This document shows, piece by piece, positions 9,165 through 36,453 of a stretch of DNA of 64,000 nt (the stretch's first letter is position 1; every line of letters begins with the position of its first letter). Made by a program: the position numbers and the translations under genes. The notes beneath the pieces are model-generated. The model was not told the DNA's origin. It searched no databases and saw only the letters and a list, made by a program, of their open reading frames with translations. The DNA comes from Geothrix sp. (GTDB lineage: Bacteria > Acidobacteriota > Holophagae > Holophagales > Holophagaceae), in contig JAUXSE010000016.1 of the NCBI GenBank assembly GCA_030681515.1, forward strand, positions 62,001 to 126,000, read 5' to 3'.

Positions 9165-9730
9165 GCCGGTGATGGACAGCGATGGACGGTGATCGGAAGA
9201 ACGGCCATCTCTATCCCGCTTCATCACCGGTGAAAGAGATTTGGAACCACCGATGAACACCACGTAAGATCCCCGACAACGCACGCGTTGGCCGGGGGGA
9301 TGAACACCGATAAAAGAATGATTGAAAAACGGCAGTCGGGAATCTGTTGGGGGTGTCGCTTCGCAGGCATGGGCTTCAGTGGGGGCGCCGGGGCCGCGCC
9401 TTTTGGGGGGCTCGGCCCCGGCGCCCCCACTGACCTCCGGCTACGCCGGAGGCCGCCTGCGGCGGGCCCATGCCCGTTGAGACGGCGCCCATCTGCGCCC
9501 TCTGCGACATCTGCGGTTCCAGCTTTTGACCCGCGCTCTTGATCTTTCATCAGCTTTAAATCGGTGTTCATCGGCGTTCATCGGCGGCAAATAGCGCTTT
9601 CCCGTGGCCCCTTCCACCCAAGCAGCGTCGAGATCGGCGCCCCACAGCGGGTGCAACGACCCGTGAAACCCAGCAAGACCCGCGAGATAGCGGCCTGCCC
9701 CATCACCGTTCATCACCGTTCATCACCGGC
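9165..9730. repeat. Composite of nested inverted repeats with GCCGGTGAT-type ends and a GC-rich hairpin core
   Basis: The outer ends are GCCGGTGATGGAC (9165-9177) and GTTCATCACCGGC (9718-9730), inverted with one mismatch. Inside lie further CCGATGAACACC/GGTGTTCATCGG inverted copies. The core has a perfect 20-bp stem (9377-9396 with 9413-9432) followed by CCTCCGGC-TAC-GCCGGAGG (9434-9452) and a third small hairpin ending in GGGCCCATGC. The same core layout occurs at 13070-13266 and, inverted, at 40171-40373. No gene is seen between 9075 and 9790. Confidence 0.8.
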
Positions 9731-9790
9731 GAAAGAGATCTTTCTCTGTGCCTGGGGACTCCAGCCTGCCCGGAGGCAGGCTCCCGGGCC

Positions 9791-9861
9791 CTACATGTCC
9801 ACGAGCCGGGGGTGGACCAGGCGCTCGAAATCCTGGTAGGCCATGCGGATCAGCTCGGTGT
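9791..9861 (-). repeat. Duplicate of the ybaK-like 3' end (left copy, 71 bp)
   Basis: Matches 11762-11832 with one mismatch (at 9853). Read on the minus strand it encodes the last 22 residues and TAG of the YbaK-like protein. It forms, with the 3' end of the intact gene, a pair of direct repeats around the AbiE genes. Confidence 0.92.
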
Positions 9862-9944
9862 CCCCGAGATGCGTGCCTCGGTGATCCTCTGCCTGCATCT
9901 TTTTGGCGTCGGGAGTAAGGACTCCGGTACCAGGGTCAAGTGAA

Positions 9945-10967
9945 TCATGGGTGGTTGAAGCGTCGTTCCCATTGGGCGACCACTTCGACCACCTCGCTCC
10001 AGGCTGGGGGCGTCCCGTAGAACATCTCCCGCTGCATGGCGTCGTAGTCCTGAGCCCAGGCGGTCATCCGGGATTCATGGGGAACAAGGCATATGGAGCC
10101 CCGGACCATGGTGTCGTAATCCACCCAGGTCTGTTTGAAGTAGACCCGGCGATGGGCCACCACCCGCTCGAACAGACCTGGGGAGGCCAAGGCCCGTTGG
10201 CCCACGCCTGCCTGGATTAACCGGGCCACATCGTAGTAGTGGCGGGCCAGTTTCTGGGCGCGGGGTTTGTCGGGAGGCCGGAAGGATTCCTCATGGAGCA
10301 GCATCGCCTTTTCAAGAAAGGTCCGTTCAGGTTCAAGAGCACGCAGCTTCACCGCAGGTTCATCGAATAACTGCGGAAAGGCAGCCGCCACCTCAGACCG
10401 GACCGTCCCCTCACGGGCTGGATCTATATCGGATCGGGCCCCCAACTCGATCTTCACCCAGGGCCCCAGATACCCCGTCGTATCCGTGGCGAGGCGCGGG
10501 TAGCTGAAGAGGAGTGTCTGCTGGTCCTTGTCATCTGGATCCATGGCCAGTTCCCACTCGCGTCCTGTCGGAAGGGCGGCTTGAAAAGCCGCGCGCAATG
10601 CGGCCTGGATGGAGCCCCTGACGGCACTGCCACAGGCCGTTTTGAGAGCCTTCAGACGCTCCTTCCGGCTCTCGTTGCTGGGGGCCGACTCGGGATCCTT
10701 TTCACCGCCGAACCCCAGCCAGCCCTTGTCCACCACCAGGTCAATGTCCTCAGAGAAGCGCTCGATGAGTTCCCAGACCTTGGAAAGAGAGGTGCCGCCT
10801 TTGAAGGTGAGGTGACCGCCGATCTCAGGGAGTAGGAAGAGCTGCTCCAGGGTCCAGCACACCCAGAAATCTTTCTCCACGGCCACGAATGCCAGCCCTT
10901 TGGCCGCAGCCGCCTGCTCCATGGCCAGACGTTGCGTTTTCAGATCCAGGGTCAGGAATCGCTGCAT
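9945..10967 (-). CDS. AbiEii-family nucleotidyltransferase toxin
   Basis: The 340-residue product carries the AbiEii/DUF1814 signature: GGTSLSK at residues 57-63 and the metal-binding pair in SEDIDLV (Asp74, Asp76). AbiEii toxins transfer nucleotides to RNA targets and stop growth, giving phage abortive infection or plasmid stability. The ATG at 10967 is one base after the stop of the antitoxin gene, which implies translational coupling. A late LARHYYDVARL motif also fits the family. It stands downstream of its antitoxin, the standard type IV AbiE order. Confidence 0.92.
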   Translation of the reverse strand: MQRFLTLDLKTQRLAMEQAAAAKGLAFVAVEKDFWVCWTLEQLFLLPEIGGHLTFKGGTSLSKVWELIERFSEDIDLVVDKGWLGFGGEKDPESAPSNESRKERLKALKTACGSAVRGSIQAALRAAFQAALPTGREWELAMDPDDKDQQTLLFSYPRLATDTTGYLGPWVKIELGARSDIDPAREGTVRSEVAAAFPQLFDEPAVKLRALEPERTFLEKAMLLHEESFRPPDKPRAQKLARHYYDVARLIQAGVGQRALASPGLFERVVAHRRVYFKQTWVDYDTMVRGSICLVPHESRMTAWAQDYDAMQREMFYGTPPAWSEVVEVVAQWERRFNHP

Positions 10968-10968
10968 C

Positions 10969-11601
10969 TCAATCTTTCGCGAGGTCTTGCAGGATCTTGG
11001 CAATCCAGGCAGGCGCGTAGCCCGCATCCTGGCGGAGGCAGGCCTTGTCCTTGGGGGTGAGGCGATTCCGGAGCGTGGCCAAAGCCCCTTCATCCAGATG
11101 GGCTTTCCCCAAGTGGCGCAGCGCCTGGATCACCAGGCCGCTGATCCTTCCAGCCGTGGCCATGTTCCGGGGCGTGGTCTGCCGCAGCACGATCTCCTGC
11201 GCACCCACCTTCACCTTGCGCGAAGCACCATCCGTCAAGAACACGACCCGGGTAGGCACCTGCTCTGACAGGCCCATTAGGTTAGCGGCGTAAGCGCCTG
11301 AGGGTTGCAATCGCAGCGCCGACCCCTTCCCCTCCAGAGCCTTGCGAATGGCGTCAAGCGTGGGCAGCAGAGGCCCGAGCATCGCGTGGACCTGGGGCCG
11401 GTCGTACAACCCACGGCCCAGGCGGCGAAGGAGCCCCTTGATGACCAGACGCGAAAGGCCTTGGTCTATGGCATTTCGATTCGCAAGATCCATGAAATCG
11501 GCGGGCTTGAACACCTTTCCAGGTTTCGATCGGCGAACGCGCCCCAGGATGGCCGCCTCGGTGGGGGCTAGCGCTGGAGTCGTTGCGGCCCGGGAGGTCA
11601 T
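10969..11601 (-). CDS. AbiEi-family antitoxin (DUF6088-like) and likely autoregulator
   Basis: The 210-residue protein has an N-terminal winged-helix-like part (ILGRVRRSKPGKVFKPADF, then a KGLLRRLGRGLYDRP wing around residues 55-70) and a longer C-terminal domain, as in AbiEi/DUF6088 antitoxins that repress their own operon and counter the downstream toxin. The ATG at 11601 sits at the edge of a perfect palindrome. An upstream TTG at 11643 in the same frame would run through the palindrome. No Shine-Dalgarno sequence precedes the ATG, so a leaderless or alternative start is possible. Confidence 0.88.
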   Translation of the reverse strand: MTSRAATTPALAPTEAAILGRVRRSKPGKVFKPADFMDLANRNAIDQGLSRLVIKGLLRRLGRGLYDRPQVHAMLGPLLPTLDAIRKALEGKGSALRLQPSGAYAANLMGLSEQVPTRVVFLTDGASRKVKVGAQEIVLRQTTPRNMATAGRISGLVIQALRHLGKAHLDEGALATLRNRLTPKDKACLRQDAGYAPAWIAKILQDLAKD

Positions 11602-11630
11602 GTCAGAAAAACTACCCTGTTTTTCTGACA
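11601..11630. promoter_or_regulatory. Perfect palindrome, probable AbiEi operator
   Basis: TGTCAGAAAAAC (11601-11612) and GTTTTTCTGACA (11619-11630) are perfect inverted copies around a six-base spacer. The site touches the start codon of abiEi. AbiEi proteins are known to bind inverted repeats in their own promoter, so negative autoregulation at this site is the likely role. Confidence 0.75.
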
Positions 11631-11761
11631 GGCGTAAAGCCAAAAGTGCATAGAATTTGGGCCACCTTGGTCCAGGTTCGTCATCCCCGTCTATCCCCGG
11701 CGAAAGGGGGCTTTGCCCTGGGTCATGGGGCTCGGCGGCGTGGCGACCTGCTCCCGCAGCG

Positions 11762-11832
11762 CTACATGTCCACGAGCCGGGGGTGGACCAGGCGCTCGAA
11801 ATCCTGGTAGGCCATGCGGATCACCTCGGTGT
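11762..11832 (-). repeat. Right copy of the 71-bp ybaK-like 3'-end repeat
   Basis: This is the true 3' end of the intact YbaK-like gene. The matching copy lies 1.97 kb away at 9791-9861, in the same orientation, so everything between them (the AbiE operon) sits between direct repeats. Confidence 0.92.
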
Positions 11833-12217
11833 GCGTGCCGGCATTGAAGGCGATCTCCGGGTCCGCCGCCAGGTGCGGCTCCACGAAGACCCGCAGGCCG
11901 TAGAGGTTGCCGAAGGGCGGCATGGCGCCGGGCTCGCATTCGGGGAAGTCCGCGAGGAAGGCCCGCTCGTCCGCCAGCTCGGCGGTGAGGGCCCCCGTGG
12001 CCTGGCGCAGGCGCTCCAGATCCACCTTCCGGGTGGCGGGCACCACGGCCAGGACGTGCTGCCCGTCCAGGTCCACCACCACCGTCTTGGCCATCTCCTT
12101 GCCGGGGATATGGGCGGCCCCAGCCACCGAGGTGGCGGTGAAGGCCACCGGGTGCGGAATGATCTGGTGGGGCACCCCGTTCGTGTTGAGGAATTCCTTT
12201 ACCTTGGTCGTGGGCAT
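11762..12217 (-). CDS. YbaK/ProX-type aminoacyl-tRNA deacylase domain protein
   Basis: AGGAGG just ahead of the ATG at 12217 fixes the start, giving 151 residues. The sequence (KTVVVDLDGQHVLAVVPATRKVDLERL, then PGAMPPFG) matches the single-domain YbaK/EbsC family, which hydrolyses mischarged tRNAs such as Cys- or Ala-tRNA(Pro). The last 22 codons are duplicated at 9791-9861, on the far side of the AbiE operon, suggesting that the operon entered at this gene's 3' end. Confidence 0.88.
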   Translation of the reverse strand: MPTTKVKEFLNTNGVPHQIIPHPVAFTATSVAGAAHIPGKEMAKTVVVDLDGQHVLAVVPATRKVDLERLRQATGALTAELADERAFLADFPECEPGAMPPFGNLYGLRVFVEPHLAADPEIAFNAGTHTEVIRMAYQDFERLVHPRLVDM

Positions 12218-12419
12218 GGCAGCCTCCTCGGGCAGAAAGCGACCCAAGGATGGGTTCCTGGGCGGAAGGGCGCCAAGGAATCCCCTGGCCACCGGGATGC
12301 AAGAGCGCCAGGGCCGCGCCTGGATCCCAGTCATCCTCTGAATCCTGTTCATCCTGGCTGAAAAAGAAAAGGACTCAGGAAGCCAGGATGAAGGGGATGG
12401 TAGGGATAAGAAATATCTG

Positions 12420-12491
12420 CCGGTGAGGAACGGTGAGGAACGGTGAGAAGGCAGTCCGCTTTTCTCACCGTTCCTCACCGTTCCTCACCGG
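12420..12491. repeat. Perfect 30-bp stem made of GGTGAGGAAC ten-mers
   Basis: Bases 12420-12449 are perfectly complementary to 12462-12491 around a 12-base loop. Each arm is three near-exact copies of a ten-base unit (GGTGAGGAAC). Related arms occur at 9165-9177, 9701-9730, 26342-26370, 26420-26448, 40171-40200 and 40350-40373. Confidence 0.85.
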
Positions 12492-12517
12492 TTCATTCAT
12501 CTTTTTCATTGGTTCCA

Positions 12518-12956
12518 GGAGATGCCTCCCAGCCCCAACAGGTACCGGAACAGGTCGCCGAAGCCAAGAGCGCCTCACAAAACCCGACGATGCCGCGATG
12601 AAGCCAGCCGGGATGCACCGCCAGGAAGGGCCCGCAGGGCAACGTGGTTCGTTGTTCAAGGGCCCTGACGCCGCGGGGCGCCCGGCTGGCTTCATCCCTC
12701 TGGGCGGGGGGTGACGGGCGTCGCCATGCTGCGTCAGGCTCGTTTCGCGTAGTCCCCGCTACGCTGCCACTCGCCTTCCTTGCCTGGCTCGCCCGGCACC
12801 CCCCGCGCGGCGACGTGGGGTTTTGTGAGGCGCTCTGCAGGCCCCGGGCGTCGGCGCCCATTCCAGGTCCTCCGGCTCCAGCGCCTCCAGCACCCGCACC
12901 GTGCGCGACCGGGCATTGCGCCAGTAGGCGAGGAAGGAGGGAGTGTCCTGGAGCAT
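12518..12956 (-). pseudogene. dinB-family pseudogene, truncated and split by a 270-bp element
   Basis: The first 40 residues read from ATG 12956 (MLQDTPSFLAYWRNARSRT onwards) are almost identical to the intact DinB protein encoded at 13368-13901. The match stops at 12837, where the 270-bp element begins, and resumes beyond it at 12519-12566 (GDLFRYLLGL, matching GDLFRHLAGV of the intact copy). The remaining two-thirds of the gene is missing. It is a tandem dinB duplicate inactivated by insertion and deletion. Confidence 0.85.
12567..12836. mobile_element. 270-bp non-autonomous element with perfect 19-bp terminal inverted repeats
   Basis: The ends are AGAGCGCCTCACAAAACCC (12567-12585) and its exact reverse complement (12818-12836). 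The similarity extends to about 33 bp with three mismatches. Inside, GGATGAAGCCAGCCGGG-type arms form a second inverted repeat. No transposase is encoded. It interrupts the dinB pseudogene relative to the intact paralogue, which gives an independent view of its boundaries. A target duplication is not clear: at most two or three bases. Open frames within it are judged to be chance. Confidence 0.82.
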
Positions 12957-13069
12957 GGGGAGAGTATTTCAGGGGTCGGCTTGGCGGTCGAAAAACGTAT
13001 TGGGAGCCACGGATGAATACGGATTCCTGAACGGGCGTGGAGCGGGACTGCTGCTCTCAACTGCTTTTC

Positions 13070-13266
13070 GCCGGTGATTTCAGTGATTCCCGTGATTCTC
13101 AGCCACCACGCAGCAGGGGCGGAGCCGGGGGTGCCGCCGCCGTGCCTTTTGGGAGCGCGGCTACGGCGCCCCCGGCTCCCTTCCGGCTCGGCCGGAAGCC
13201 GCCTCCGGCGGGCCCATGCGGGAAGCTCGCGGCGCGCCATCACCGTCCATCACCGAAATCACCGGC
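13070..13266. repeat. 197-bp inverted-repeat element with GC-rich hairpin core
   Basis: Ends GCCGGTGATTTC (13070-13081) and GAAATCACCGGC (13255-13266) are perfect inverted copies. The core has GGAGCCGGGGG/CCCCCGGCTCC arms (13121-13131, 13169-13179), then CTTCCGGC-TCG-GCCGGAAG (13180-13198) and a GGCCCATGC end, as in the other two copies. The rest of the 410-bp space between the two dinB genes holds ACACCGATRAA-type short repeats and no gene. Confidence 0.82.
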
Positions 13267-13367
13267 AAAAGAAGAACACCGATAAACACCGAGAACTGAA
13301 TGATGAACACCGATGAAAACCAGTGAGCGCCCGCCCACGCTTTGGCTTGATCGGTGTTTATCAGCTT

Positions 13368-13901
13368 TTATCGGTGTTCATCGGTGGTTGGCTTTTGGCT
13401 TTCCCCGGGTTTCGAGGCGGCGGCGAGCTGTTCTTCGGTGAGGCCGAAGAGGGGCGACACGGCGCGGCCCCGCAGGCTGGCCATGAGGTAGAGCTGGCCG
13501 CGATGGTGGGCTTCGTGCTCGGTCATGGCGCGGAGCCACTTCCAAGTCGGCATGGAGGAACCAGAGGGGTTCTGGCAGGGGGCCAGCAGGTCCGCGTCGC
13601 TGAGGCCGCCGAAGATCGCGAGGGAGTCGGCGTGGCAGCGGTCCAGGTAGGCGCGCACGCCCGCCAGGCCCGTGGCCAGATCCGCCCCGTGTCCCAGGTA
13701 CGCGCTGGGGCGGCCCTGCACGTTCTCCGCCCACATGAACCGCTCCACCCCCGCCAGGTGCCGGAACAGGTCGCCAAAGCTGAAAGCCCCCGGCGCCGGC
13801 GCCCATTCCAGATCCTCCGGTTCCAGCGAATCCAGCACCCGCACCGTGCGGGACCGGGCGTTCCGCCAGTAGGCGAGGAAGGAGGGGGTGTCCTGGAGCA
13901 T
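13368..13901 (-). CDS. DinB-family putative metalloprotein
   Basis: From ATG 13901 the product is 177 residues, the usual DinB/YfiT size, a four-helix bundle. Candidate metal-binding histidines are in FRHLAGVERFMW (near residue 50) and the late EHEAHHRGQLYL motif (near residue 135), both typical. Family members are often thiol-transferase-like or stress-related; no specific role can be assigned. The last residues (PTTDEHR) are encoded by an intergenic ATCGGTG-type repeat that also supplies the stop codon, so the C-terminus looks altered by repeat insertion. A broken duplicate lies just downstream. Confidence 0.88.
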   Translation of the reverse strand: MLQDTPSFLAYWRNARSRTVRVLDSLEPEDLEWAPAPGAFSFGDLFRHLAGVERFMWAENVQGRPSAYLGHGADLATGLAGVRAYLDRCHADSLAIFGGLSDADLLAPCQNPSGSSMPTWKWLRAMTEHEAHHRGQLYLMASLRGRAVSPLFGLTEEQLAAASKPGESQKPTTDEHR

Positions 13902-14007
13902 GGGGGAGTATCCCAGGAAAGGAGACGGACGTTGTAAGGCCTTGGATGAGGGACGGCTACACCAATGGCGGATAAGCTGGGTGATCATCTAAAAACGTCG
14001 TTCTGGC

Positions 14008-14727
14008 ATGGAGCCTGGTGTGACCCTTGCCTTCAACATTTACTGCGATGAAAGCTGCCACCTGGAGCACGACCACTCAAAGGTGATGGTGCTTGGAGCG
14101 GTTTGGTGCCCCACGGACAAGGTGCGGGAGATCGCGGTGCGCCTGCGTGAGATCAAAGCCGCACACGGCCTTTCGACTACGTTCGAGTTGAAGTGGACGA
14201 AGGTCGGCCCTGCCAAGCTCGCGTATTACCGCGAGGTGCTCGACTATTTCTTCGACGATGACGATCTCCACTTCCGCGCCCTGGTGGTGCCCGATAAGGG
14301 AAAGCTCGATCACACGGCCCATCACCAGGACCACGATACCTTCTACTACAAGATGTACTTCGATCTGTTGAAGGTGCTCTTCGATCCCAAGGCGCAATAC
14401 CAGATCTACCTGGACATCAAGGACACGCGCAGCCAGCGCAAAGTGGATTACCTCAAAGAGGTGCTTCGCAACGCCCACTACGATTTCCAGAAAAGCATGA
14501 TCCAGAAGGTGCAGCAGATTCGCAGCCATGAGGCTGAACTATTGCAGGTGGCGGATCTGCTCATCGGCGCGGTGGGCTATGCGAACCGGGGCCTGGAAAG
14601 CAGTTCGGCGAAGCTGGCGCTGGTAAAGCGCTTACGGGGCAGATCGGGCTATTCCTTGACTCGAAACACCTACCTGCGTGAAGAGAAGGTGAATATTTTC
14701 ACCTGGAATGCACGGGAGGCCCGGTGA
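14008..14727 (+). CDS. DUF3800 domain protein
   Basis: The 239-residue product has the DUF3800 features: an early acidic YCDESC motif (Asp14, Glu15), an ELKWTKV stretch near residue 55, YLDIKDTRS near residue 135 and a C-terminal LLQVADLLIGAV motif. The family has an RNase H-like fold with conserved acidic residues and is common in phages, plasmids and defence islands; a nuclease role is suspected but not proven. The ATG at 14008 lacks a clear ribosome-binding site; a GTG at 14020 preceded by GGAG is an alternative. It overlaps the next gene (TGATG). Confidence 0.85.
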   Translation: MEPGVTLAFNIYCDESCHLEHDHSKVMVLGAVWCPTDKVREIAVRLREIKAAHGLSTTFELKWTKVGPAKLAYYREVLDYFFDDDDLHFRALVVPDKGKLDHTAHHQDHDTFYYKMYFDLLKVLFDPKAQYQIYLDIKDTRSQRKVDYLKEVLRNAHYDFQKSMIQKVQQIRSHEAELLQVADLLIGAVGYANRGLESSSAKLALVKRLRGRSGYSLTRNTYLREEKVNIFTWNAREAR

Positions 14728-15245
14728 TGCCGGAAGATCTGGTCCCCTCCTGGCTCCCACCATTGATGCCCTTCGAGGCTTACGGCGGGAACTGGACGAG
14801 CTATCTGGACGCGTTGTACGCGGTGTTCCAGCGGGACTTCTGCGGCCAACTACCCCCCTTCCGGGGGCGGCGATTGGCCTTGAAGCGGTTCCCCTTGGAT
14901 CAGGGCAAGGAAGCGACGTTCTGGCACTTCATCCAGGAAGGAAAGGTGGAAGCGGACAGGACGCCGGACCTCCGGCGCTGCGAGCGAATCCGCTGGCCGC
15001 GTCCCGTGATTGAGGCCCATGCGGTGGCTGGGCGGATCCACCTCTGGTGCGAGCGTCGCAGCGTGAAGGGAAAAGGCCAGGAGTCCAGGTGGCAGCTTGC
15101 TCTGCCCGATTTCAGTTACCTGGTAGTGCTCGCGGATCGGGGCACTTTTCTACTACCCTGGACGGCCTATTCCCTGGAGCGCCCGCATGAACGCAGAAAA
15201 CTGGAGCAGCGCTGGAAGGCCTGCCAAGGGCCGGATGGCCCCTAA
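14727..15245 (+). CDS. Unknown protein translationally coupled to the DUF3800 gene
   Basis: GGGAGG at 14714-14719 and a TGATG overlap fix the start. The 172-residue product begins MPEDLVPSWLPPLMPFEAY. It has aromatic-rich segments (RIRWPRPVIEAH, RIHLWCERRS, RWQLALPDFSYLVVLADRGTFLLPWTAYSLE) and a basic end. The late RHE-like pattern (PHERRKLEQRW) recalls small BECR-fold phage or toxin nucleases, but this is a guess. Coupling to a DUF3800 gene and position just before a type III restriction system suggest a defence or mobile-element role. Confidence 0.75.
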   Translation: MPEDLVPSWLPPLMPFEAYGGNWTSYLDALYAVFQRDFCGQLPPFRGRRLALKRFPLDQGKEATFWHFIQEGKVEADRTPDLRRCERIRWPRPVIEAHAVAGRIHLWCERRSVKGKGQESRWQLALPDFSYLVVLADRGTFLLPWTAYSLERPHERRKLEQRWKACQGPDGP

Positions 15246-15488
15246 AAAGGCTGGGGCCGCCTTCCAGTGGATGACGGCCCCGTAACTCCTGCGCACACAT
15301 GGTGGCTGAGCTGACACCAGAATAGGTCGTAGGAGAGGCGGTATCAAGGCGATTCAGACAAGGGTGGGCAGGCGATTCCAACCAATTGTGGCCAAGTTCA
15401 ATTCTCCTATGATTTCCCCTCTTCCGGGGAAACAGGATGGCCCTCCGTTTCCGGTAAGGTGAAGGATCCTCCTTGCTGAAGGTGCGCG

Positions 15489-17022
15489 ATGCCGATACTT
15501 GATTGGTTGGGAAAGGCCGAGGCCCTGAAGGCTGCGCAGAAGGTACCGTTCCGGCTGCTGGAACCGGTGCCTGAGCTAAGTGTTGGAAATGCGGGGGGGG
15601 GGGAATTCCAACCTTCTGATCCAGGGGGACAACCTGGAGGCTCTGAAGGCGCTGCTGCCCTTCTACGCCGGTCAGGTGAAGTGCATCTTCATTGATCCGC
15701 CCTACAACACCGGCAGCGCCTTCGAGCACTACGACGACAACCTGGAGCACAGCACCTGGCTGAACCTCATGTATCCCCGCCTTGAACTGTTGCGGGAGCT
15801 GCTGCATGAGGATGGAAGCATCTGGGTGACCATCGACGACAACGAGGCCCACTACCTCAAGGTGGTGATGGATGAAGTTTTTGGCCGCAACAACTTTGTA
15901 GCAAATGTGTTTTGGCAAAAGACACCAACTAGAGAGAACCGGACAGACGTGTCCACCGTTCACGATCATGTATTGCTCTATGCGCGGAATCGCGAGACCT
16001 GGAAGGAAGTTAGAAATCCTTTACCTGCCTCAGAGAGTCAAATTGAGCGATTTACTAATCCTGATAACGATGAGCGTGGTCCTTGGGCTTCATTGCCAGC
16101 CCATGCAAAGGCCGAGAAGGGCCGCAGAAAGGAACAATTCTTTACGATAAGAACCCCCTCTGGGCGAAATGTCGATCCCCCTGCAGGTCGCTGCTGGCTC
16201 TACACGGAGCCTCGATTCCACGAGATGGTCAGGGATAAAAGAATCTGGTTCGGCGCAGACGGAGGCAACGTGCCGCGCGTGAAAAAATTTCTATCTGAAG
16301 TTCAGGCTGGGTTGGTTCCTTCGACGCTATGGCTTTACCAAGAAGTTGGAACCAATGGACAGGCCAAATTAGAAATCACTCGACTGTTCCCCGGAGAAAC
16401 CCCGTTCTCAACGCCCAAACCAGAAGGCCTCCTGGCGAGAATTCTTCAAATCGCCAGCAACCCCGGCGACCTTGTCCTCGACTCCTTCCTCGGTTCGGGC
16501 ACCACGGCCGCAGTCGCACACAAGATGGGTCGCCGCTACATCGGCATCGAGATGGGGGAGCACGCGGAAACCCATTGCGCGCCCCGCCTGCGAAAGGTGA
16601 TCGAGGGCGAACAAGGCGGCATCTCGGAGGCCGTGGGCTGGAAGGGCGGTGGCGGCTTCCGCTTCCTGCGCCTGGGGGAACCCCTGTTCGATCCCATGGG
16701 CCTCATCAACCCGGCGGTGCGCTTTCCCCAGCTTGCGGCCTTCGTATGGTTCAGTGAAACGCGCACGCCGCTGGAGGCCGCGCCGGGATCGCCTCTGTTG
16801 GGCATCCACGAAGGCGTGGCCACCTACCTGCTCTACAACGGCATCCTGGGGGACCGTCGGCCCGCAGGTGGCAATGTGCTGACCACCAAGGTGCTGGAGG
16901 CACTGCCGCCCTTCGACGGGCCGAAGGTGATCTTCGGCGAGGCCACGCGCCTGGGGCCGGATCGCCTGCGGGCGTTGGGCATCACCTTCAAGCAGACCCC
17001 TTTCGACCTCAAGGCTCGGTGA
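15489..17022 (+). CDS. mod: Type III DNA methyltransferase Mod, out of frame at an 11-G tract (phase-variable)
   Basis: The natural start is ATG 15489 after AAGGTG. It reads MPILDWLGKAEALKAAQKV and reaches the G tract at 15593-15603, where the frame breaks. With one G fewer (10) the same frame continues through NLLIQGDNLEALKALLPFY to a complete Mod of about 510 residues. Beta-class methylase motifs follow: DPPYNTG (motif IV) and DSFLGSGTT (motif I/FxGxG), with the target-recognition region between them. As given, the gene is OFF unless translation restarts at ATG 15589. The recognition region (about 15890-16400) is clearly more AT-rich than the rest. res follows after three bases. Confidence 0.9.
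15593..15603 (+). repeat. Homopolymer tract of eleven G, candidate phase-variation switch
   Basis: Eleven consecutive G lie 35 codons into mod. Ten or thirteen G would restore the full reading frame. Slipped-strand mispairing in such tracts is the known switch mechanism for phase-variable type III mod genes. A homopolymer sequencing error of one base is the main alternative. Confidence 0.85.
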
Positions 17023-17025
17023 CCC

Positions 17026-19647
17026 ATGTTCGAACTGAAGACCTACCAAAGCGATGCCATGGATGCGCTGGAGCGTTTTCTCAAGGAGGCCCGGGCGGAC
17101 AGTTGCGCTCCAGCCTTTGAAGCCGCACTGGACCGCCAGGGGCGCATGCGGGAGAGTTACGACACCCATGGCCTGGGCGAGATTCCTTATGTCTGCCTGC
17201 GCCTGCCCACCGGGGGCGGCAAGACGCTGCTGGCCTCTCACTCGGTGAAGCGCATCGCCCAGCACTACCTCTCGGAGGACGCGCCGGTCGTGCTGTGGCT
17301 GGTGCCCAGCAATGCCATCCGGAACCAGACGCTGGAAGCCCTGCGAAATCCGGCCCATCCCTACCGAGAGGTATTGGATCAGCACTTCCGGGGGCGGGTG
17401 GCCGTCTACGATATCGGTGAAGTGGCGCAAATCCGGCCCCACGACCTGGCGACGAAGGCTTGCATCGTGGTGGGCACACTGGCGACTCTGCGGGTTGAAG
17501 ACACGGATGGTCGCCGCATCTACGCCCACAACGAGGCCTTCGAGGCACATCTGAAGCAGGTGCCCGTCAAGGACGGGTTCGAGCGGGATGAGAAGGGGCA
17601 GGTGAAGTATTCCTTCGCCAATGTGCTGAACCACCACCGCCCCATCGTTATCCTCGACGAGGCGCACAAGGCGCGGACCAAGCTGAGCTTCGAGACGCTG
17701 AAACGCGTTCATCCAGCCTGCGTCCTGGAGTTCACGGCGACACCCAAAGCCGAACAAGGCAGCAATGTTTTGTACCATGTATCCGCCTCTGTCTTGAAGG
17801 CAGAGGACATGATCAAGCTGCCCCTGATGCTCACTGCCCATCAGGACTGGCGCGATGCCGTTCGGGATGCGCTGCTGACCCGCAAGCAGCTCGAAGATGA
17901 CGCCAAAGGCGAGTCGGATTACATCCGGCCCATCGTGTTGTTCCAGGCTCAGGACAAGGATCAGGCGGTGACGGTGGAGGTGCTCAAGCAGCACCTCGTC
18001 GATTTCGAGAAGGTGCCGGAAGCATCCATCGCCATCGTCACGGGCGGTCAGCGAGAGCTGGATGGTGTGGATCTGTTCAAGCGGGGCTGTCCCATCACCT
18101 GCGTCATTACCATTGAGGCCCTGAAGGAAGGCTGGGATTGCAGCTTCGCCTATGTCTTCTGCTCCGTGGCGAAGGTCCGCTCCAGCACCGATGTGGAGCA
18201 GTTGCTGGGCCGGGTGCTGCGGATGCCCTATGCCAAGCGGCGCAAGCACGAATCCCTGAATCGCGCCTATGCCCATGTCTCCTCGGACGAGTTCTACCAG
18301 GCGGCCACCAGCTTGCGCGATTGCCTGATCGACATGGGATTCGAGGAAATGGAAGCAGATGCTTTCCTCCAGCAGGGGCAGCCACTCTTTGACCCAGATG
18401 CGTTCTCCGGAGAGAAGGCACCACGTCCGATCTCTCTTCCCTTGGATCTGGTGCTGCAACACATGCCCGATCTCAGTGCCTTGAGCCCCGATGAGCAGGG
18501 GCGGATCAAGGTGACGCCCACAGAATCGGGCGTGGCCATTCGCGTGGAAGGAACCACCACGGAAGCCATGGAAACGGCCCTTCTTACTGGCGCGGACAGC
18601 AAATCCAAGGCAGATGTGAAGCACCGCATTCAAGGCCACCGGGCCAGGCAGAGCGCCATGGAATCGCCTGCGATGAAGGGCGTTTCCTTTGCGCCACTGC
18701 CGCGGTTGGCGTCCTGGGTCCAAGGCGAACTCGTGCTCGCCGAGCGGGAGGCATTCCTTTCGGCCGGCGCCCAGGATCTTCTAGACCAACCCTACGACCT
18801 TACGGCCGGGAATCTGAAACCCTTGGAAACCACTGAGCAATACCTGGTGGACATGGACGAGCAGAAGGTGCGCATCACCTTCGCTGATGAGTCCCAAGCG
18901 CTCGACCTCGATCATGTAGACCTGGGTTGGTCCGAAAATGATCTGATCTTCTGGCTGCTCCACCACACGCGCAGTGAGCAGATCACGGCCGCTAAGCAAC
19001 TGGAGTGCATCCGGCGCCATATCGCGCATTTGCTCGAAGAGAAGGACGCCAGCATCCCTGTGCTGGTCCGCCGCCGCCACCGACTAAGCCGCCTTCTTGC
19101 GGAGCGCATCCAGGCCTTCAACAAGGATGTCCTCGCCCGTGGTTTTGAGACCCTTCTATTCGCGGATGGGGCCGAGCCCAGGGTCGATTTCGATCGTGCC
19201 TTCACCTTCCAGCCTGGGATCTATCCGACCTCCAATCCCTACAAGGGATCCCACCGGTTCAAGAAGCATTACTTTCCAATCATCGGGGACATGAAGGCCG
19301 ATGGAGAGGAGTTCCGGTGTGCGCTCGAACTGGAGCGACTTGCAGATGTGAAGCACTGGGTTCGCAACTTGTCGAACCAGCCGCAGCACTCCTTCTGGCT
19401 TCCCACCAGCAGCGACCGGTTCTACCCAGATTTCGTCGCTGAACTTACGGACGGACGCACGCTGGTGGTCGAGTACAAGGGGGAACCCTACAAGACCAAC
19501 GATGACTCCAAGGAGAAGCGGCTCGTGGGTGCCTTGTGGGAAAGCCTCACCGAAGGGAATGGCCTGTTTCTCATGGCGGTCGAAAAGGATGAGCAGGGGC
19601 GGGGGGTTGCCGAGCAGCTGCGCGCGAAGGTCATTGCAGCGCCGTGA
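17026..19647 (+). CDS. res: Type III restriction enzyme Res subunit (helicase-nuclease)
   Basis: The 873-residue product has the superfamily-2 helicase motifs: Walker A PTGGGKT near residue 64, the DEAH-type box ILDEAHKA near residue 210, a TATP motif shortly after, and a later LLGRVLRMP (motif VI) near residue 395. The C-terminus carries a PD-(D/E)xK nuclease: FYPDFVAEL then LVVEYKGE near residues 800-820. Res needs Mod for target recognition and cuts after ATP-driven contact of two sites. It is in frame and appears intact, starting three bases after mod, so restriction would be gated by the mod switch. Confidence 0.93.
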   Translation: MFELKTYQSDAMDALERFLKEARADSCAPAFEAALDRQGRMRESYDTHGLGEIPYVCLRLPTGGGKTLLASHSVKRIAQHYLSEDAPVVLWLVPSNAIRNQTLEALRNPAHPYREVLDQHFRGRVAVYDIGEVAQIRPHDLATKACIVVGTLATLRVEDTDGRRIYAHNEAFEAHLKQVPVKDGFERDEKGQVKYSFANVLNHHRPIVILDEAHKARTKLSFETLKRVHPACVLEFTATPKAEQGSNVLYHVSASVLKAEDMIKLPLMLTAHQDWRDAVRDALLTRKQLEDDAKGESDYIRPIVLFQAQDKDQAVTVEVLKQHLVDFEKVPEASIAIVTGGQRELDGVDLFKRGCPITCVITIEALKEGWDCSFAYVFCSVAKVRSSTDVEQLLGRVLRMPYAKRRKHESLNRAYAHVSSDEFYQAATSLRDCLIDMGFEEMEADAFLQQGQPLFDPDAFSGEKAPRPISLPLDLVLQHMPDLSALSPDEQGRIKVTPTESGVAIRVEGTTTEAMETALLTGADSKSKADVKHRIQGHRARQSAMESPAMKGVSFAPLPRLASWVQGELVLAEREAFLSAGAQDLLDQPYDLTAGNLKPLETTEQYLVDMDEQKVRITFADESQALDLDHVDLGWSENDLIFWLLHHTRSEQITAAKQLECIRRHIAHLLEEKDASIPVLVRRRHRLSRLLAERIQAFNKDVLARGFETLLFADGAEPRVDFDRAFTFQPGIYPTSNPYKGSHRFKKHYFPIIGDMKADGEEFRCALELERLADVKHWVRNLSNQPQHSFWLPTSSDRFYPDFVAELTDGRTLVVEYKGEPYKTNDDSKEKRLVGALWESLTEGNGLFLMAVEKDEQGRGVAEQLRAKVIAAP

Positions 19648-19668
19648 CCGGCCCCTGACTACGGTGAT

Positions 19669-19917
19669 TTACGGCGCGTAATCCACGGATCGCATTTCCG
19701 CCACCAGGGTTTCGGGGGCGATGTCCTGTTCGTGGGGCCAGGTCACGGCGCCTAGCAGGGTGCCGACCTGATTGAAGTAGGACACCTCGCGTAGCTCCCG
19801 GAAGACGCCGAAATCCAGGTAGGGCTTCAGGTCGAAGATCCCCTTCCGTCCGTCCTCGATCTCCACGTAGATCTGATAGTCGGGGAGCGGCTTGACCTTC
19901 TTTACATCCGAATTCAT
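19669..19917 (-). CDS. DUF2442 domain protein
   Basis: An 82-residue protein with a strong GGAGGG ribosome site, reading VKKVKPLPDYQIYVEIEDGRK then GIFDLKPYL, the DUF2442 pattern. Such proteins often act as the antitoxin-like partner of a DUF4160 protein, but no DUF4160 gene is adjacent here. It converges on res with a 21-bp gap and may belong to the defence region or be a leftover of it. Confidence 0.85.
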   Translation of the reverse strand: MNSDVKKVKPLPDYQIYVEIEDGRKGIFDLKPYLDFGVFRELREVSYFNQVGTLLGAVTWPHEQDIAPETLVAEMRSVDYAP

Positions 19918-19955
19918 GCCGCCCTCCTTTCCCTAGATGCGTTCGCCAGAACGCC

Positions 19956-26523: not shown

Positions 26524-28635
26524 ATGAATCCAACGCCCAAGCGCCATCCCGAGCTGACGCGCCTCTATGTGGCGGTGGGGCTGGTCGTGATGATCCTCAT
26601 GATCATCCTGGTCTACAAGGCCGTGGGCAACCGGGTGGCGGTGGGCGGGCTGGATGCGCCCTCCCGCTGGGCGCTGCTGGCGGTGGGCGTGCTCAATGCG
26701 CTGGCCATCGGGACGCTGCTCTTCATCGTGGCCCGCAGCGTGGCCAAGCTCTACTTCGAGCGCCGCAGCGGCATCCTGGGGGCCCGGCTGCGCACCCGCC
26801 TGGTGCTGACGCTGTTCGTGGTGGGCATCGTGCCGAGCCTGATCCTCTTCGGGGTGGGCCGGAACTTCATCAACAAGAACGTGGAACGCTGGTTCAGCCC
26901 CGAGACCGAGGTCGCGATCCGGGACGGCCAGAAGGCCGCGGAGGATCTGCGGGCCGCCTCCAGGGCCCGCCTGGAGTTCGGCGCGGGCCGCCTGCGGGTG
27001 TCCGCCTCCGCCGAAGCGCCCGAGATCCGCGCCGCTTCGGGCCTGGATCTGGTGGCCTTCCTGGGGGCCCGGGCCGGCGAAGGCGTGAAGGCCCTGGACC
27101 TGGGGGCGGGCCTGGAACCCCCGGATCTGTCGTCCCTGGGGGTCGAGGCCTCGCAGGAATCGAAGGCGGGCCTCTGGATGCTGCGGGCCGTGCCCCGGGG
27201 GGACGGCCTCTGGGTCGTGGGTGTCTTTCTGCCCCGGGAAAGCCTCGACCGGATGCTGGCGCTGGAGCAGCGGTTCCGGGAAAGCCAGCAGATCCGCGCG
27301 GCCAAGGATACGCTCCAGACCCTGCCCCAGAGCACCTTCCTCTTCCTCACCCTGCTGACCCTCTTCTTCGCCGTGTGGTCGGGCCTGGCCCTGGCCAAGT
27401 CCCTGAGTGAGCCCATCCGGGCCCTGGCCAAGGCCGCCCAGCGGGTGGGCAGCGGCGATCTGGAGGTGCAGCTGCCGGAGCTGGGCGAAGACGAACTGGC
27501 CTTCCTGGCCCGCACCTTCAACGCCATGACCCGCGATCTGAAAACCAACCGGGCGGCCATCGAGGCCCAGGCCAGCCGCCTGGAGCAGCAGCGGGCCTAC
27601 CTGGATCAACTGCTGGCCGCGCTGCCCGTGGGGGTCATGAGCTGGCGGGCCGATGGCGAACTGCGCACCTTCAACGCCGCCGCCCGCAGCTGGCTGGGGC
27701 TGGAATCCTTTGATCCCACCGAGGCCCGCTGGGCGACGGTGGAAGCCCTGCCGCGCCTGGGGCGCCTGCCGGAGCTGCTGGCCGCCGTGCGCGAATCGAA
27801 GCGGGGCGCCCAGGAGGAACTGCGCCTGGGTGGGGAAGGCGAAGGGCGCCCCGTGCGCGCCATGCTCGAACCGATCCAGGGCGGGGGCGTGCTGGCGGTG
27901 CTGGAGGATCTGTCTCTGCTGGCCCAGGCCGAGAAACGCGCCGCCTGGCAGGAGGTGGCCCGCCGCATGGCCCACGAAGTGAAGAACCCACTCACGCCCA
28001 TCCAGCTCACGGCCCAGCGGCTGCTGCGCCGGACCCGCGAAGGCCGCCTGGACCCGGAGACAGTGCAGGAGGGCGCGGAGACCATCCTGGCGGAGGTCTC
28101 CAGCCTGTCGCGGCTGGTGGACAGCTTCAGCCGCTTCGCGCGCCTGCCCGTCCCGCAGTTCTCACCCTGCGATCCGGCGGATCTGCTGCGCCAGGTGGCG
28201 GCGCTCTACGGGCCGAATCATCCGGAGATCCAGTGGGAGCTGCGCCTGCCGGAGGCGCCGGTCGCGGCGCTGTGGGACGGCGACATGGTGAAGCGGGCCC
28301 TCATCAACTTCGTGGACAACGCGCTGGCAGCCATGGAAGGCCGGAGCGCCGAAGCCGTGGTGGACGGCCGGGGCGCCATCCACCTGTCGCTGTCCGCGGA
28401 GGGCGAGGTCCTGCGCTTTGATGTGGTGGACGGGGGCGTGGGCGTACCGGAAGCGGATCGTCCCCGCCTCTTCGAACCCTACTTCTCCACCAAGCGGAAG
28501 GGCACCGGCCTGGGCCTCGCCATCGTCCGCCGCATCGCCCAGGATCACGGCGGCGACGCCCGCTACGAGCCCCTGGACCCCGGCAGCCGGTTCAGCCTGG
28601 TGCTGCCGAAGGCGTCCCGCACTTCACCGGGTTGA
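26524..28635 (+). CDS. NtrY-like sensor histidine kinase
   Basis: The 703-residue protein has three N-terminal hydrophobic segments (about 17-37, 50-72 and 93-112), an extracytoplasmic sensor part to about 272, a fourth membrane helix (TFLFLTLLTLFFAVWSG), HAMP (about 298-345), PAS (about 360-465), the H-box RMAHEVKNPLTPIQ with phospho-accepting His484, and an ATPase domain with NFVDNALAAME and GTGLGLAIVRRI. This order matches NtrY, which pairs with NtrX in nitrogen or redox control. No response regulator gene is adjacent. The 3' end overlaps the convergent M14 gene by 44 bp. A broken partial copy lies at 31555-32035. Confidence 0.9.
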   Translation: MNPTPKRHPELTRLYVAVGLVVMILMIILVYKAVGNRVAVGGLDAPSRWALLAVGVLNALAIGTLLFIVARSVAKLYFERRSGILGARLRTRLVLTLFVVGIVPSLILFGVGRNFINKNVERWFSPETEVAIRDGQKAAEDLRAASRARLEFGAGRLRVSASAEAPEIRAASGLDLVAFLGARAGEGVKALDLGAGLEPPDLSSLGVEASQESKAGLWMLRAVPRGDGLWVVGVFLPRESLDRMLALEQRFRESQQIRAAKDTLQTLPQSTFLFLTLLTLFFAVWSGLALAKSLSEPIRALAKAAQRVGSGDLEVQLPELGEDELAFLARTFNAMTRDLKTNRAAIEAQASRLEQQRAYLDQLLAALPVGVMSWRADGELRTFNAAARSWLGLESFDPTEARWATVEALPRLGRLPELLAAVRESKRGAQEELRLGGEGEGRPVRAMLEPIQGGGVLAVLEDLSLLAQAEKRAAWQEVARRMAHEVKNPLTPIQLTAQRLLRRTREGRLDPETVQEGAETILAEVSSLSRLVDSFSRFARLPVPQFSPCDPADLLRQVAALYGPNHPEIQWELRLPEAPVAALWDGDMVKRALINFVDNALAAMEGRSAEAVVDGRGAIHLSLSAEGEVLRFDVVDGGVGVPEADRPRLFEPYFSTKRKGTGLGLAIVRRIAQDHGGDARYEPLDPGSRFSLVLPKASRTSPG

Positions 28636-31351: not shown

Positions 31352-31462
31352 TCAGGAGGGCCAGGGCCCTTTGGCGGCGGAGCCCCGTCGCCGCCTCAAC
31401 CAGATCCCCACCGGCCCCAGCACCAGCCAGGCCAGCAGCACGAGCTTGAACAGTGGGCTCAC
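31352..31462 (-). CDS. Small membrane protein, duplicate copy B of the apt-linked microprotein
   Basis: GTG 31462 overlaps the TAG of an apt 3'-end fragment, exactly as in the intact locus. The 36 residues (VSPLFKLVLLAWLVLGPVG, then IWLRRRRGSAAKGPWPS) hold one hydrophobic helix and an Arg-rich tail. Against copy A at 35764-35856, the helix differs only by V/F, V/L and L/I changes, while most base changes are silent, suggesting that the peptide matters. It sits in a rearranged segment and may no longer be expressed. Confidence 0.5.
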   Translation of the reverse strand: MSPLFKLVLLAWLVLGPVGIWLRRRRGSAAKGPWPS

Positions 31463-31556
31463 TAGTACCGCAGGACGCTGAACACCGGCAGGCCCTCGAC
31501 TTTTTCGCGGCCGGGCAGGGAGGTCAGCTCAATGAAGACCGTGAGGGCCACGGGCT
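31462..31556 (-). pseudogene. Duplicate fragment of the apt 3' end
   Basis: The last 30 or so codons of apt (35856-35953) are repeated here at high identity, through ALTVFIELTSLPGREK to the stop. At about 31556 the match switches abruptly to the kinase fragment, where both parents share GGGCTGG and a CGCCG-GCGC stretch. No start or PRPP-binding part is present. Confidence 0.85.
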
Positions 31557-32040
31557 GGCCGCCGTGCGCGAATCGAAGCGGGGCGCCCAGGAGGAACTGC
31601 GCCTGGGTGGCGAAGGCGAAGGCCGCCCCGTGCGCGCCCTGTTCGAACCCATCCAGGGCGGGGGCGTGCTGGCGGTGCTGGAGGATCTGTCTCTGCTGGC
31701 CCAGGCCGAGAAACGCGCCGCCTGGCAGGAGGTGGCCCGCCGCATGGCCCACGAAGTGAAGAACCCCCTCACGCCCATCCAGCTCACGGCCCGGCGGCTG
31801 CTGCGCCGGACCCGCGAAGGCCGCCTGGATCTGGAGGCCGTCAAGGAGGGCGCGGAAACCATCCTGGCGGAGGTCTCCAGCCTGTCGCGCCTGGTGGACA
31901 GCTTCAGCCGTTTCGCGCGCCTGCCCGTTCCGCAGTTCTCGCCCTGCGATCCGGCGGATCTGCTGCGCCAGGTGGCGACGCCCGCTACGAGCCCCTGGAC
32001 CCCGGCAGCCGGTTCAGCCTGGTGCTGCCGAAGGCTGTGA
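31555..32040 (+). pseudogene. Internally deleted duplicate of the NtrY-like kinase gene
   Basis: Bases 31555-31977 match the kinase gene at about 27778-28200 (PAS end through the H-box). The match then jumps to 28552-28613, skipping 355 bp that encode most of the ATPase domain, at a GGCG shared by both sides. The jump also puts the last part out of frame. It lacks the sensor and the catalytic domain and should be inactive. Confidence 0.88.
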
Positions 32041-32297
32041 AGGGCTGAACCCTCTGGCACCCGCTGTCCCACGTTGGCGGCAAAGGTTCACATCAAGGGC
32101 ATCCGGGCGTCACTTCCGCTCGGGAATATGGCTTCATCCATCGCCTTTTTCTGGGTGTGGCAGGGGAGTTCTGGGGCGAGTCTAAGCCTCGCTTGTTCGA
32201 TTAAATTTCGTCTTAAGTGTTAAAAAACAATATCTTTATTAAAAATAACCTTAGGGTAATTTTTAAATTCCAACCCTTCCCCTATTCAGGAGTTCCC

Positions 32298-35200
32298 ATG
32301 CGAAATCTCAGACCCTCCTTCAAGTGGAGCCTTTGCCTGGCGCTGCTCGGCGGCCTGGCCCTCTCACCACTGGCCCACGCGCGCGTCGCTGCGGTTGACA
32401 GCAACCCTGCTGGGCATGGGCAAACCCACGAGCGCAAGGCCGCCTCTCACGGTGAGCCGCAGAACCACCGACCCGCCCACATCACCATCCTCTCTCAGCC
32501 CGTCAGCCAGACGGTCGTGGTCGGGCAGCCCACCACCTTCAGTGTGGCGGCCACGGGCAAACCCCCTCACCTTCATTACCAATGGCGGCAGGATGGCCGC
32601 CGGGTCGGCTGGGATGCCCCGAGCTACACGATCCCTGCGACCCAGGCCTGGCATGCCGGGATCTACACCGTGGTGGTGAGCAACGTCGTGGACAGTGTGG
32701 TCAGCGAGCCTGCCCGCCTGACGGTCAATCTTCCACCCAGGATCCTGACCCAACCGGTGGGACAGACCGTGGTCGAGGGCGGACCGGTCAGCTTCTCGGT
32801 GGTGGCGTCCGGCTCTGGGACCTTGAGCTACCAGTGGCGCAAGGCGGGTGCCCCGATCACGGGTGCCAACGACGCGACCCTGAGCTTGCCCTCTGTGGTC
32901 GGTGCCGATGCGGGCAGCTACGACGTGGTGGTGACCAACACCCTGAATGGAACCCTCACCACCACCACCTCCCACGCGGCCCTGCTGCTGGTGAACGTGC
33001 CCCCGGTCATCAGCCAGCAGCCCATGAGCCAAACCCGGGCCCTGGGGAGTTCGGTGTCCTTCTCGGTCATGGCCAACCTGCTGAGCGACGGGACGCTTGG
33101 GTACCAGTGGCGCAAGGAGGGCCTCGCGATCCCGGGAGCCGTCTCCGCCACGTACGCGATCACCAGCCTTTCGGGGGCGGATGCCGGCACCTATGACGTC
33201 CTGGTCACCAACACCCTGAATGGAACGGTCACCACCACGGTTTCCGCGTCGGCGTTCCTGGCGATCAACTTCCCTCCCGTCATCAGCGTCCAGCCCCTGG
33301 CGCAGACCGTTGATCAGGGAAGTGGCGTGACCTTCAGCGTCGTGGCCTCGGCGGAAGGGGGGGGAACCCTGAGCTACCAGTGGCGGAAGGATGGCGCTTC
33401 CATCCTGGGCGCCACGCAGGACACCTTCAGCATCCCGAGCGTCACTGCGGCTGATGCCGGAAGCTACGATGTGGTGATCACCCACACCTTGAACGGCACG
33501 ACCACGGCGACCACTTCACTCTCCGTGGTGCTGGACGTCCACACGCCCCCGACCATCCTGATCCAGCCCCAGAGCCAGACCGTCCAGCCACCGGACGCGG
33601 TGACGTTCACCGTGTCGGCGCAGGCGAACAACGGCGGGTCGCTGACCTACGTCTGGAAGAAGAACGGCACGGATATCCCCGGCGCCACGGCCTCGTCGTA
33701 CTCGGTGCCTTCCACCGAATTCGCCACCAACCCGGACGCCTACTGGGCCACCGTGAGCGAAGGCAGCCTGAGCACCGACACCGCCACGGTCTACGCCACG
33801 GCTTCCGTTCCTTCTCCCTCCTATGCCGGCGACCCCGTCCCCGTGCCGAGCCGTCCCCTGACGGTGCTGCCTTCCTTCCATGTGGACGCCGTGACTTTTC
33901 CCAATGGCGCCTTCCGGCTCGGCTACGACGAGACCCTCAAGAACCCGGTGTGGACGGCCTATGTGAATTTCCCGGTGAACGCCCCTTATCCGAACTCCAC
34001 GGCGGACTACCAGGCGGATCCCAGGCTGGAAGTGCCCCAGGTCGGCAAGAACGACTACACCGGCATCTACACGGGGGGCGCCAGCTACCCCGACAGCTAT
34101 GACCGTGGGCATCAGGTCCCCCGGGCTGACGTGTCCTACCGCTACACCCCGGTGGCCGGTGACGACGCCACGATCATGAGCAACCTGGTTCCGCAGATTT
34201 CCCAGTTCAACCAGCAGACCTGGCAGAAGCTGGAGGAAGCCATCGGCGGCACCCAGGGCGGCACCACGAACGGTTTGACCTCCTTCAAGGGCCGGATCTG
34301 GGTCTATACCGGTTCCGTGTTCCCCGCCTCCCCGGCCTGGTGGGACTCCAGAATCACGCCCGGGCTCCGGATCGCGATTCCCGAGGCCTGCTACAAGATC
34401 GTCGTCCACGAGACGGTCCCGGGGCACCCCGAAGTGCTAGCCATGCTCATGCCCAATGTCTGGGGACTGACCAACAGCACCTCCACGCTGACCTGGTATG
34501 TGACCTCCCTGGCCCGGATCGAGGCCCTGACAGGGTTGGAGTTCTTCCCCAACCTGGCCACGGTCGCCCCTGGCCTGGACATCCCCACCTGGAAGGCCAC
34601 CGTGGACGTGCGCGGCTGGCGGGCGCCTTTTGAGCAGGCGATCGGCCCCAATGTCCACATGATCCAGCCCAGCTATGACACCACCATCGACCTGGGCACT
34701 TCGGTGGCCTTCGATGGTGCCGCCACGCCCCATTCGGCGGCGGATGCCGGTACCACCATCGCCTCGGCGACCTGGACTTTCGGGGACGGAAGTCCCACCA
34801 GCACCGGGTTCTCGACGGCCCACCAGTACCCGAGCGCGGGTTCCTTCAACGCGACCTTTACCGCCCAGGACAGCCTGGGGACGAGCAACACGATCACCCG
34901 GGTGATCCGCGTCATTCCGCCGGTCGCCAGCAACGTGGCTCCCACCACCAATCCATCCGTGCTGGGAAACCAGACCAGCACGGCGGGACAGAGTGTCACC
35001 GTGACGTTCACGGTGGCCGATGACCGCACCCTGGCCAGCTTGATCAAGGTGGCCGCCACGTCCGACAATGCCGCCCTGCTTCCGGACAGCGGGATCCAGA
35101 CCACCAATGCGGCCGGAGCCGTCACGCTCGTGATGGCCCCGGTGGCAGGCCTGGACGGCACGGCCACCATCACCGTGACCCTCACGGATGGGGACGGGGC

Positions 35201-35763: not shown

Positions 35764-35856
35764 CTAGGTGGGCCGACGCCGACGCCGCCTCAGCCACAGC
35801 CCCACCGGTCCCAGCACCAGCCAGGCCAGCAGCACCACCTTGACCAGCGGGCTCAC
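35764..35856 (-). CDS. Small single-helix membrane protein coupled to apt (copy A)
   Basis: A 30-residue frame starts with a GTG that shares its first base with the last base of the apt TAG (TAGTG). The product, VSPLVKVVLLAWLVLGPVG then LWLRRRRRRPT, is one hydrophobic helix with a six-arginine tail. It is too short for routine gene calling. The related copy B at 31352-31462 keeps the same helix with mostly silent changes. The function is unknown; a membrane microprotein is the simplest reading. Confidence 0.6.
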   Translation of the reverse strand: MSPLVKVVLLAWLVLGPVGLWLRRRRRRPT

Positions 35857-36380: not shown

Positions 36381-36453
36381 GGCTACCTGCGGATCTCGGG
36401 TGGATGGGGAGGCGAGGATCGCATATCCAGGCCGTTCGAGTCCAGCCGGGGGC

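Follow-up and report, generated by a model that had tools for sequence, protein, structure and literature searches.

Background

Many chromosomal defense genes are found without any integrase or transposase, and the route by which they arrived is an open question. A described mode that dispenses with such enzymes is insertion with long target duplication, a name first given to the arrangement of restriction-modification (RM) genes in Helicobacter (Nobusato et al. 2000, as cited in PMC1643837); this work and that of Furuta et al. 2010 are described in PMC3874152, PMC1643837 and PMC3031569. The duplications at these genes are long and variable, about 100 bp (PMC3874152). AbiE is a type IV toxin-antitoxin (TA) system, for which the papers describe plasmid or ICE stabilization (PMC3985639, PMC11062541) and not flanking target duplications, and we found no paper reporting insertion with long target duplication for AbiE.

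Here, we analyze an AbiE operon of Geothrix that has a copy of a ybaK-like gene's 3' end on each side. The locus resembles the RM cases in comprising a small addictive defense unit with no linked mobile element, a long, variable duplication and an empty site for comparison, although what it carries is an operon for type IV toxin-antitoxin, or abortive-infection, functions and the arrangement extends to several phyla. With cis-mobilizable or integrase-less islands between attL and attR (PMC5704250), it shares a pair of direct repeats around cargo genes alone, the lack of a recombinase and a location at a gene 3' end; unlike those elements, it has no autonomous relative with the same attachment site that we could find, and repeat length and target vary. 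Foreign DNA beside a homologous anchor and tandem duplications are also features of homology-facilitated illegitimate recombination and of transformation merodiploids (PMC2884548, PMC3784515), but those duplications span 100-900 kb (PMC3784515) or were made in the laboratory, whereas at the present locus we infer the corresponding step.

The AbiE operon and the duplicated ybaK end

The window, a 64-kb stretch of a Geothrix genome (hereafter G000), contains an intact ybaK-like gene (11762..12217, minus strand) with an aminoacyl-tRNA editing domain (PF04073, E 5.5e-26), the protein scoring below the family cut-off of TIGR00011. On the same strand, 120-160 bp downstream of ybaK, there are two adjacent genes, of which abiEi (10969..11601, minus; ATG start, with an upstream TTG at 11643 as a possible alternative) encodes a predicted antitoxin and autorepressor of the DUF6088/AbiEi families (PF19570, E 6.7e-42; PADLOC AbiEi, E 2e-62; just short of the cut-off for PF13338). 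The product of abiEii (9945..10967, minus; PF08843, E 3.1e-37; PADLOC AbiEii, E 4e-99) is a predicted nucleotidyltransferase (NTase) toxin, and its open reading frame contains GG-x15-DID, which conforms to the NTase motif hG[G/S]x15DhD of known AbiEii toxins (PMC3985639). A perfect 12-bp inverted repeat, TGTCAGAAAAAC-N6-GTTTTTCTGACA, is located upstream of abiEi (11601..11630) and is the probable AbiEi operator, by analogy with the role described in PMC3985639; in two other Geothrix genomes (G036 and G040), the AbiEi palindrome is present twice, the copies being 185 bp apart. By its toxin gene, the adjacent upstream abiEi and the inverted repeat, the operon classifies as a predicted AbiE type IV TA system and would have the described composition of a winged-helix repressor/antitoxin, an NTase and an inverted-repeat operator (PMC3985639), except that AbiEi is of the DUF6088-type subfamily.

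A sequence-only reading of this stretch had noted a 71-bp direct repeat of the ybaK-like 3' end around the operon, and this repeat is real: in the coding tail, 9791-9861 and 11762-11832 are identical at 70 of 71 positions, with a single mismatch. Traced slightly further, the copies at 9788..9861 and 11759..11832 (both minus) agree at 72 of 74 positions, the right one being the functional ybaK 3' end and the left one a remnant of the ybaK tail, beyond which, from 9862, the sequence is not that of ybaK. With the noncoding 3' flank of ybaK included, the repeat extends to 9710..9861 and 11681..11832 (minus; ~82% identity over 152-154 columns, E ~1e-33), the identity between the copies being 97% in the coding tail but only ~70% in the flank. 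Thus, a direct repeat on the ~100-bp scale of long target duplications brackets the operon on both sides (74 bp at 97%; 152 bp at 82%). The same reading had placed the operon right after the ybaK stop codon, which proved inaccurate: a spacer of ~120 bp between the stop and the predicted operator (11641..11761) and the 12-bp inverted repeat intervene. On the other side, 83 bp (9862..9944) separate the abiEii stop from the left copy.

As the reading had also stated, no integrase is encoded between the repeats, the inserted stretch containing abiEi and abiEii only, with no linked recombinase, transposase or mobile element. Our genome-wide search, which was for tyrosine recombinases, detected none on the contig of the window and five in G000, all on other contigs. 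Two trivial origins of the repeat were ruled out. A second full ybaK gene, which the reading had named as a possible source of the left copy, does not account for it because no further ybaK-like DNA was found in the G000 genome, and an assembly artifact is excluded given that an independent assembly, that of Geothrix sp. GS30, agrees and that the repeat copies are not identical.

Empty and occupied sites in Geothrix

Among the 47 Geothrix genomes searched, 6 encode relatives of AbiEii, and only 2 have the AbiE cassette at ybaK, namely, G000 and G031 (Geothrix sp. GS30, contig JAVBYJ010000020.1), with the same junctions. The arrangement is, accordingly, not fixed among the relatives, and the empty site that the sequence-only reading had suggested looking for exists, the ybaK end being single-copy in the other genomes where it was found. 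Two genomes (G012 and G034) contain two full ybaK genes each. The other search it had suggested, for the same ybaK end beside other cargo, gave no such case in the 47 genomes, and the ybaK-tail pattern had no match in viral contigs; a ybaK-specific island family is thus not supported. Of the mobile cassette originally proposed, what stands is an inserted defense cassette with a duplicated gene end, which may or may not move with a helper. A search of the literature returned no relevant paper on ybaK as an integration site. Because the repeats around AbiE elsewhere derive from unrelated targets and range from 22 to 265 bp (see below), a long target duplication fits better than a fixed attachment site.

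The neighborhood of the distal repeat copy, that is, the one on the far side of the operon from ybaK, points to its origin. In GS30, the distal tail is 26 bp from the stop codon of a hybrid histidine kinase gene, and in another genome (G028), the kinase orthologue is accompanied by an isolated ybaK tail of 40 bp (L230, G028:C98, 519-557), no other ybaK DNA match having been found in that genome. Therefore, the distal copy is probably the resident ybaK end, next to its ancestral kinase neighbor. The simple reading is that there was an ancestral convergent ybaK-kinase pair and that the cassette was inserted between ybaK and the resident end; the kinase region has since been lost in G000, which complicates the history of the left flank in this genome.

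The content of the interval between ybaK and topA (12218-19950 of the window) is hypervariable. In G000, it includes a DUF3800 gene, an open reading frame that by eye resembles site-specific methyltransferases and a type III restriction-subunit gene (15580-19647), and in GS30, a D12 methyltransferase gene and another gene, so that the interval looks like a defense hotspot.

Foreign composition and age of the cassette

The abiE genes have a foreign composition, with GC3 of 0.74-0.75 compared to 0.93-0.94 in the neighboring genes. They have also diverged less between G000 and GS30 than the surrounding genes, with dS of 0.055-0.073 against 0.144 for an MBL gene, 0.209 for ybaK and 0.258 for topA; changes were counted at 26 of 417 synonymous sites in abiE compared with 21 of 115 in ybaK (p 0.0003, G000 vs GS30). 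Along the locus, the divergence between the two genomes is ~3% over 9883-11582, rises sharply at ~11600 and reaches 6-16% in the spacer and ybaK; the spacer at 11641..11761 differs by 14% plus gaps, which is the host level, and the spacer on the opposite side shares 78 of its 83 bases with GS30. Given the low GC3 and the lower dS and divergence than in the surroundings, the cassette is foreign and appears to be younger at ybaK than the split between G000 and GS30, or else was exchanged later. Both of the base differences between G000 and GS30 in the left tail are repeated in the right tail (9839/11810 and 9847/11818). Such co-varying tails reflect either conversion between the copies or a cassette that was inserted twice at one and the same base; a double insertion would favor a site-specific enzyme.

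Elsewhere in the genus, G036 and G040 encode AbiE that is 75% identical and adjoins tRNA-Phe. The AbiE segments of these two genomes are 97% identical to each other, compared to 82% for the adjoining chromosome, which indicates a recent move. The G036 element (L052, G036:C197) additionally contains primase/helicase and helix-turn-helix genes, which are absent in G040. In G040 (L051, G040:C11), the 3' end of the tRNA is repeated between tRNA-Phe and AbiE, an arrangement resembling tandem or stripped integrative elements.

Direct repeats around AbiE in other bacteria

We examined 89 AbiE loci, picked by similarity to the AbiEii of the window, for direct repeats of at least 35 bits within 700 bp on either side of the operon. 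Direct repeats of 22-265 bp bracket AbiE in 16 of the 89 loci, the remaining 73 having no detectable repeat, whereas the controls yielded 0/89 for inverted repeats, 0/267 for mismatched flanks and 1/225 for slid windows. The excess is highly significant (p 8e-9, or 9e-8 against slid windows without the present locus and one sister), with the qualification that the test came after a first scan of overlapping loci. These three controls rule out chance or generic repeats as the explanation. A small additional AbiE set contained repeats in none of its 3 usable loci. The inserts between the repeats consist of the operon alone and are of uniform size across phyla, 1.8-2.3 kb, with most at 1.8-2.1 kb and a median of 1896 bp. 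Consistent with an operon-sized unit, L109 and L111 are 97.4% identical over only 1709 bp and have unrelated flanks, and several other pairs of AbiE loci have 1.70-1.86 kb in common, the operon only.

Most of the repeats that we could identify come from the tails of unrelated genes, and one from a tRNA end, the gene identities given here having been read from the sequence. The repeat of L160 measures 265 bp and takes in the tails of two convergent genes with all of the intergenic DNA between them, and that of L119 comprises 254 bp of intergenic DNA and the tail of a FecR-like gene. Others are a nuoN-like tail of 140 bp that runs up to the stop codon (L154), the tail of a phosphoribosyltransferase-like gene of the ComF type (L125) and the 22-bp 3' end of tRNA-Ser around AbiE alone (L138). 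The two nuoN-like copies differ mainly by synonymous changes (16 synonymous vs 7 nonsynonymous codon differences, p ~1e-5 to 1e-4), which indicates that one of the two came from another lineage as a functional allele; this locus departs from the RM precedent in that it holds two diverged functional alleles and not simply a duplicated sequence. In two deltaproteobacterial loci (L120 and L139), a near-identical 120-bp repeat is found on both sides of AbiE while the outer right flanks differ, and this repeat may travel with the cassette.

For comparison, 1 of 24 HipBA loci had a repeat of at least 35 bits and none of the 24 reached 50 bits (p 0.11 vs AbiE). Among D12 methyltransferase loci, 1 of 15 had a repeat, as the RM literature predicts: in this case (L316), a gene for a D12-class DNA adenine methyltransferase lies between 137-bp, 89% identical copies of the preceding gene tail and the next start codon. 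Flanking repeats recur around AbiE in several phyla on statistical evidence, the control sets being too small to set AbiE apart from other cassettes.

Flanking duplications around AbiE, far above chance in many unrelated bacteria, suggest that such cassettes need to bring neither an integrase nor a transposase when they enter a genome, and the long duplications in several phyla, together with the uniform operon-size inserts, suggest a shared recombinase-free route for small addictive defense units. Judged by its architecture, the Geothrix locus matches what would be a TA example of a known, little-studied insertion mode. The duplicated gene tail provides a sequence mark that makes it possible to count and test such arrivals.

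Possible routes of insertion

With somewhat better than even confidence, we propose that the ~1.8-kb AbiE operon entered beside ybaK as foreign DNA by host-driven recombination, with no recombinase of its own. In a transformation-like event, one end of the cassette would carry a homologous gene tail or pair with one, while its opposite end would join illegitimately or to the sister chromosome, so that the inserted operon would have the ybaK 3' end with its flank on either side and ybaK itself would stay intact. RecA-type recombination between the repeats should be able to remove the cassette precisely, and toxin addiction along with phage defense would select against the cells that lose it, so that addiction could explain the persistence of the cassette between the repeats; we infer the recombination route, this cause of retention and the excision alike. 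Host recombination, for example, during transformation, is favored over one site-specific enzyme because of the variable repeat length, the diverse targets, the imported tail of L154 and the other partial-gene duplications within the 64 kb.

The tRNA 3'-end repeat of L138 and the location of AbiE at tRNA-Phe among phage-like genes in G036 and G040 speak against the host route, each being a setting typical of integrases, and so do the 73 AbiE loci with no detectable repeat. The tRNA cases fit, instead, a non-autonomous, cis-mobilizable-like cassette that integrates at the ybaK 3' end through a tyrosine integrase acting in trans, the repeats being attL and attR. A cassette that inserts at the 3' end of a gene and restores that end is as expected under this scheme, five tyrosine recombinases are encoded elsewhere in G000, G040 resembles a tRNA-Phe element that has been stripped in comparison with G036, and two same-base insertions would account for the identical junctions in two species, the co-varying tails and a cassette younger than its hosts. 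Yet, the cassette lacks an integrase, we found no ybaK end with other cargo in the 47 Geothrix genomes and no match to its tail pattern in viral contigs, and the repeats vary widely in length and target, that of L160 even spanning two tails and an intergenic region, so that we regard this scheme as rather unlikely. The comparison of G036, where AbiE at tRNA-Phe is accompanied by primase and excisionase-like genes, with G040, where there is little else, equally exemplifies gene loss, and a larger element at ybaK might have been deleted down to the addictive TA operon. Random erosion, however, would leave variable remnants, whereas the inserts are uniform across phyla, and this cassette retains no remnants of other genes; we consider such erosion improbable. 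Improbable, too, is that AbiE of this subfamily forms mobile units of ~1.8 kb without a recombinase gene that repeatedly enter gene or tRNA 3' ends by a dedicated, hitherto unrecognized process, in this case twice and independently at the same ybaK base in two Geothrix species. Finally, an independent local rearrangement, of a kind common in this genome, could have duplicated the ybaK tail, with abiE merely lying between the copies. The window does contain three or more further duplications of parts of genes, spaced 1-4 kb; but the copies are only 83 bp and ~120 bp from the operon, and the same arrangement is found at AbiE in other phyla far above the controls, making a coincidence of this kind very improbable.

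Other repeats in the window

Pieces of a histidine-kinase gene at 27777-28214 and 28549-28613 are repeated at 31554-31993 and 31971-32035 (95-98% identity), and this duplication (26524-28635/31453-32040) is a further partial-gene duplication around inserted genes, here for an M14 peptidase and an LD-carboxypeptidase. A phosphoribosyltransferase gene (35856-36602, minus) has its tail present twice with 91% identity (31385-31569 vs 35779-35964), and between the copies lies an Ig/PKD-domain protein that also contains a DNA/RNA non-specific endonuclease domain (32217-35687). A DinB-superfamily gene (13368-13988, minus) is likewise duplicated in part, just downstream (12835-12973 vs 13780-13917, 89%). 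In addition, a short intergenic repeat based on ATCACCGTTCATCACCGG occurs at 9550-9730, 12420-12491 and 13234-13397, and many copies of it, often as inverted pairs, are scattered in G000 and other Geothrix genomes.
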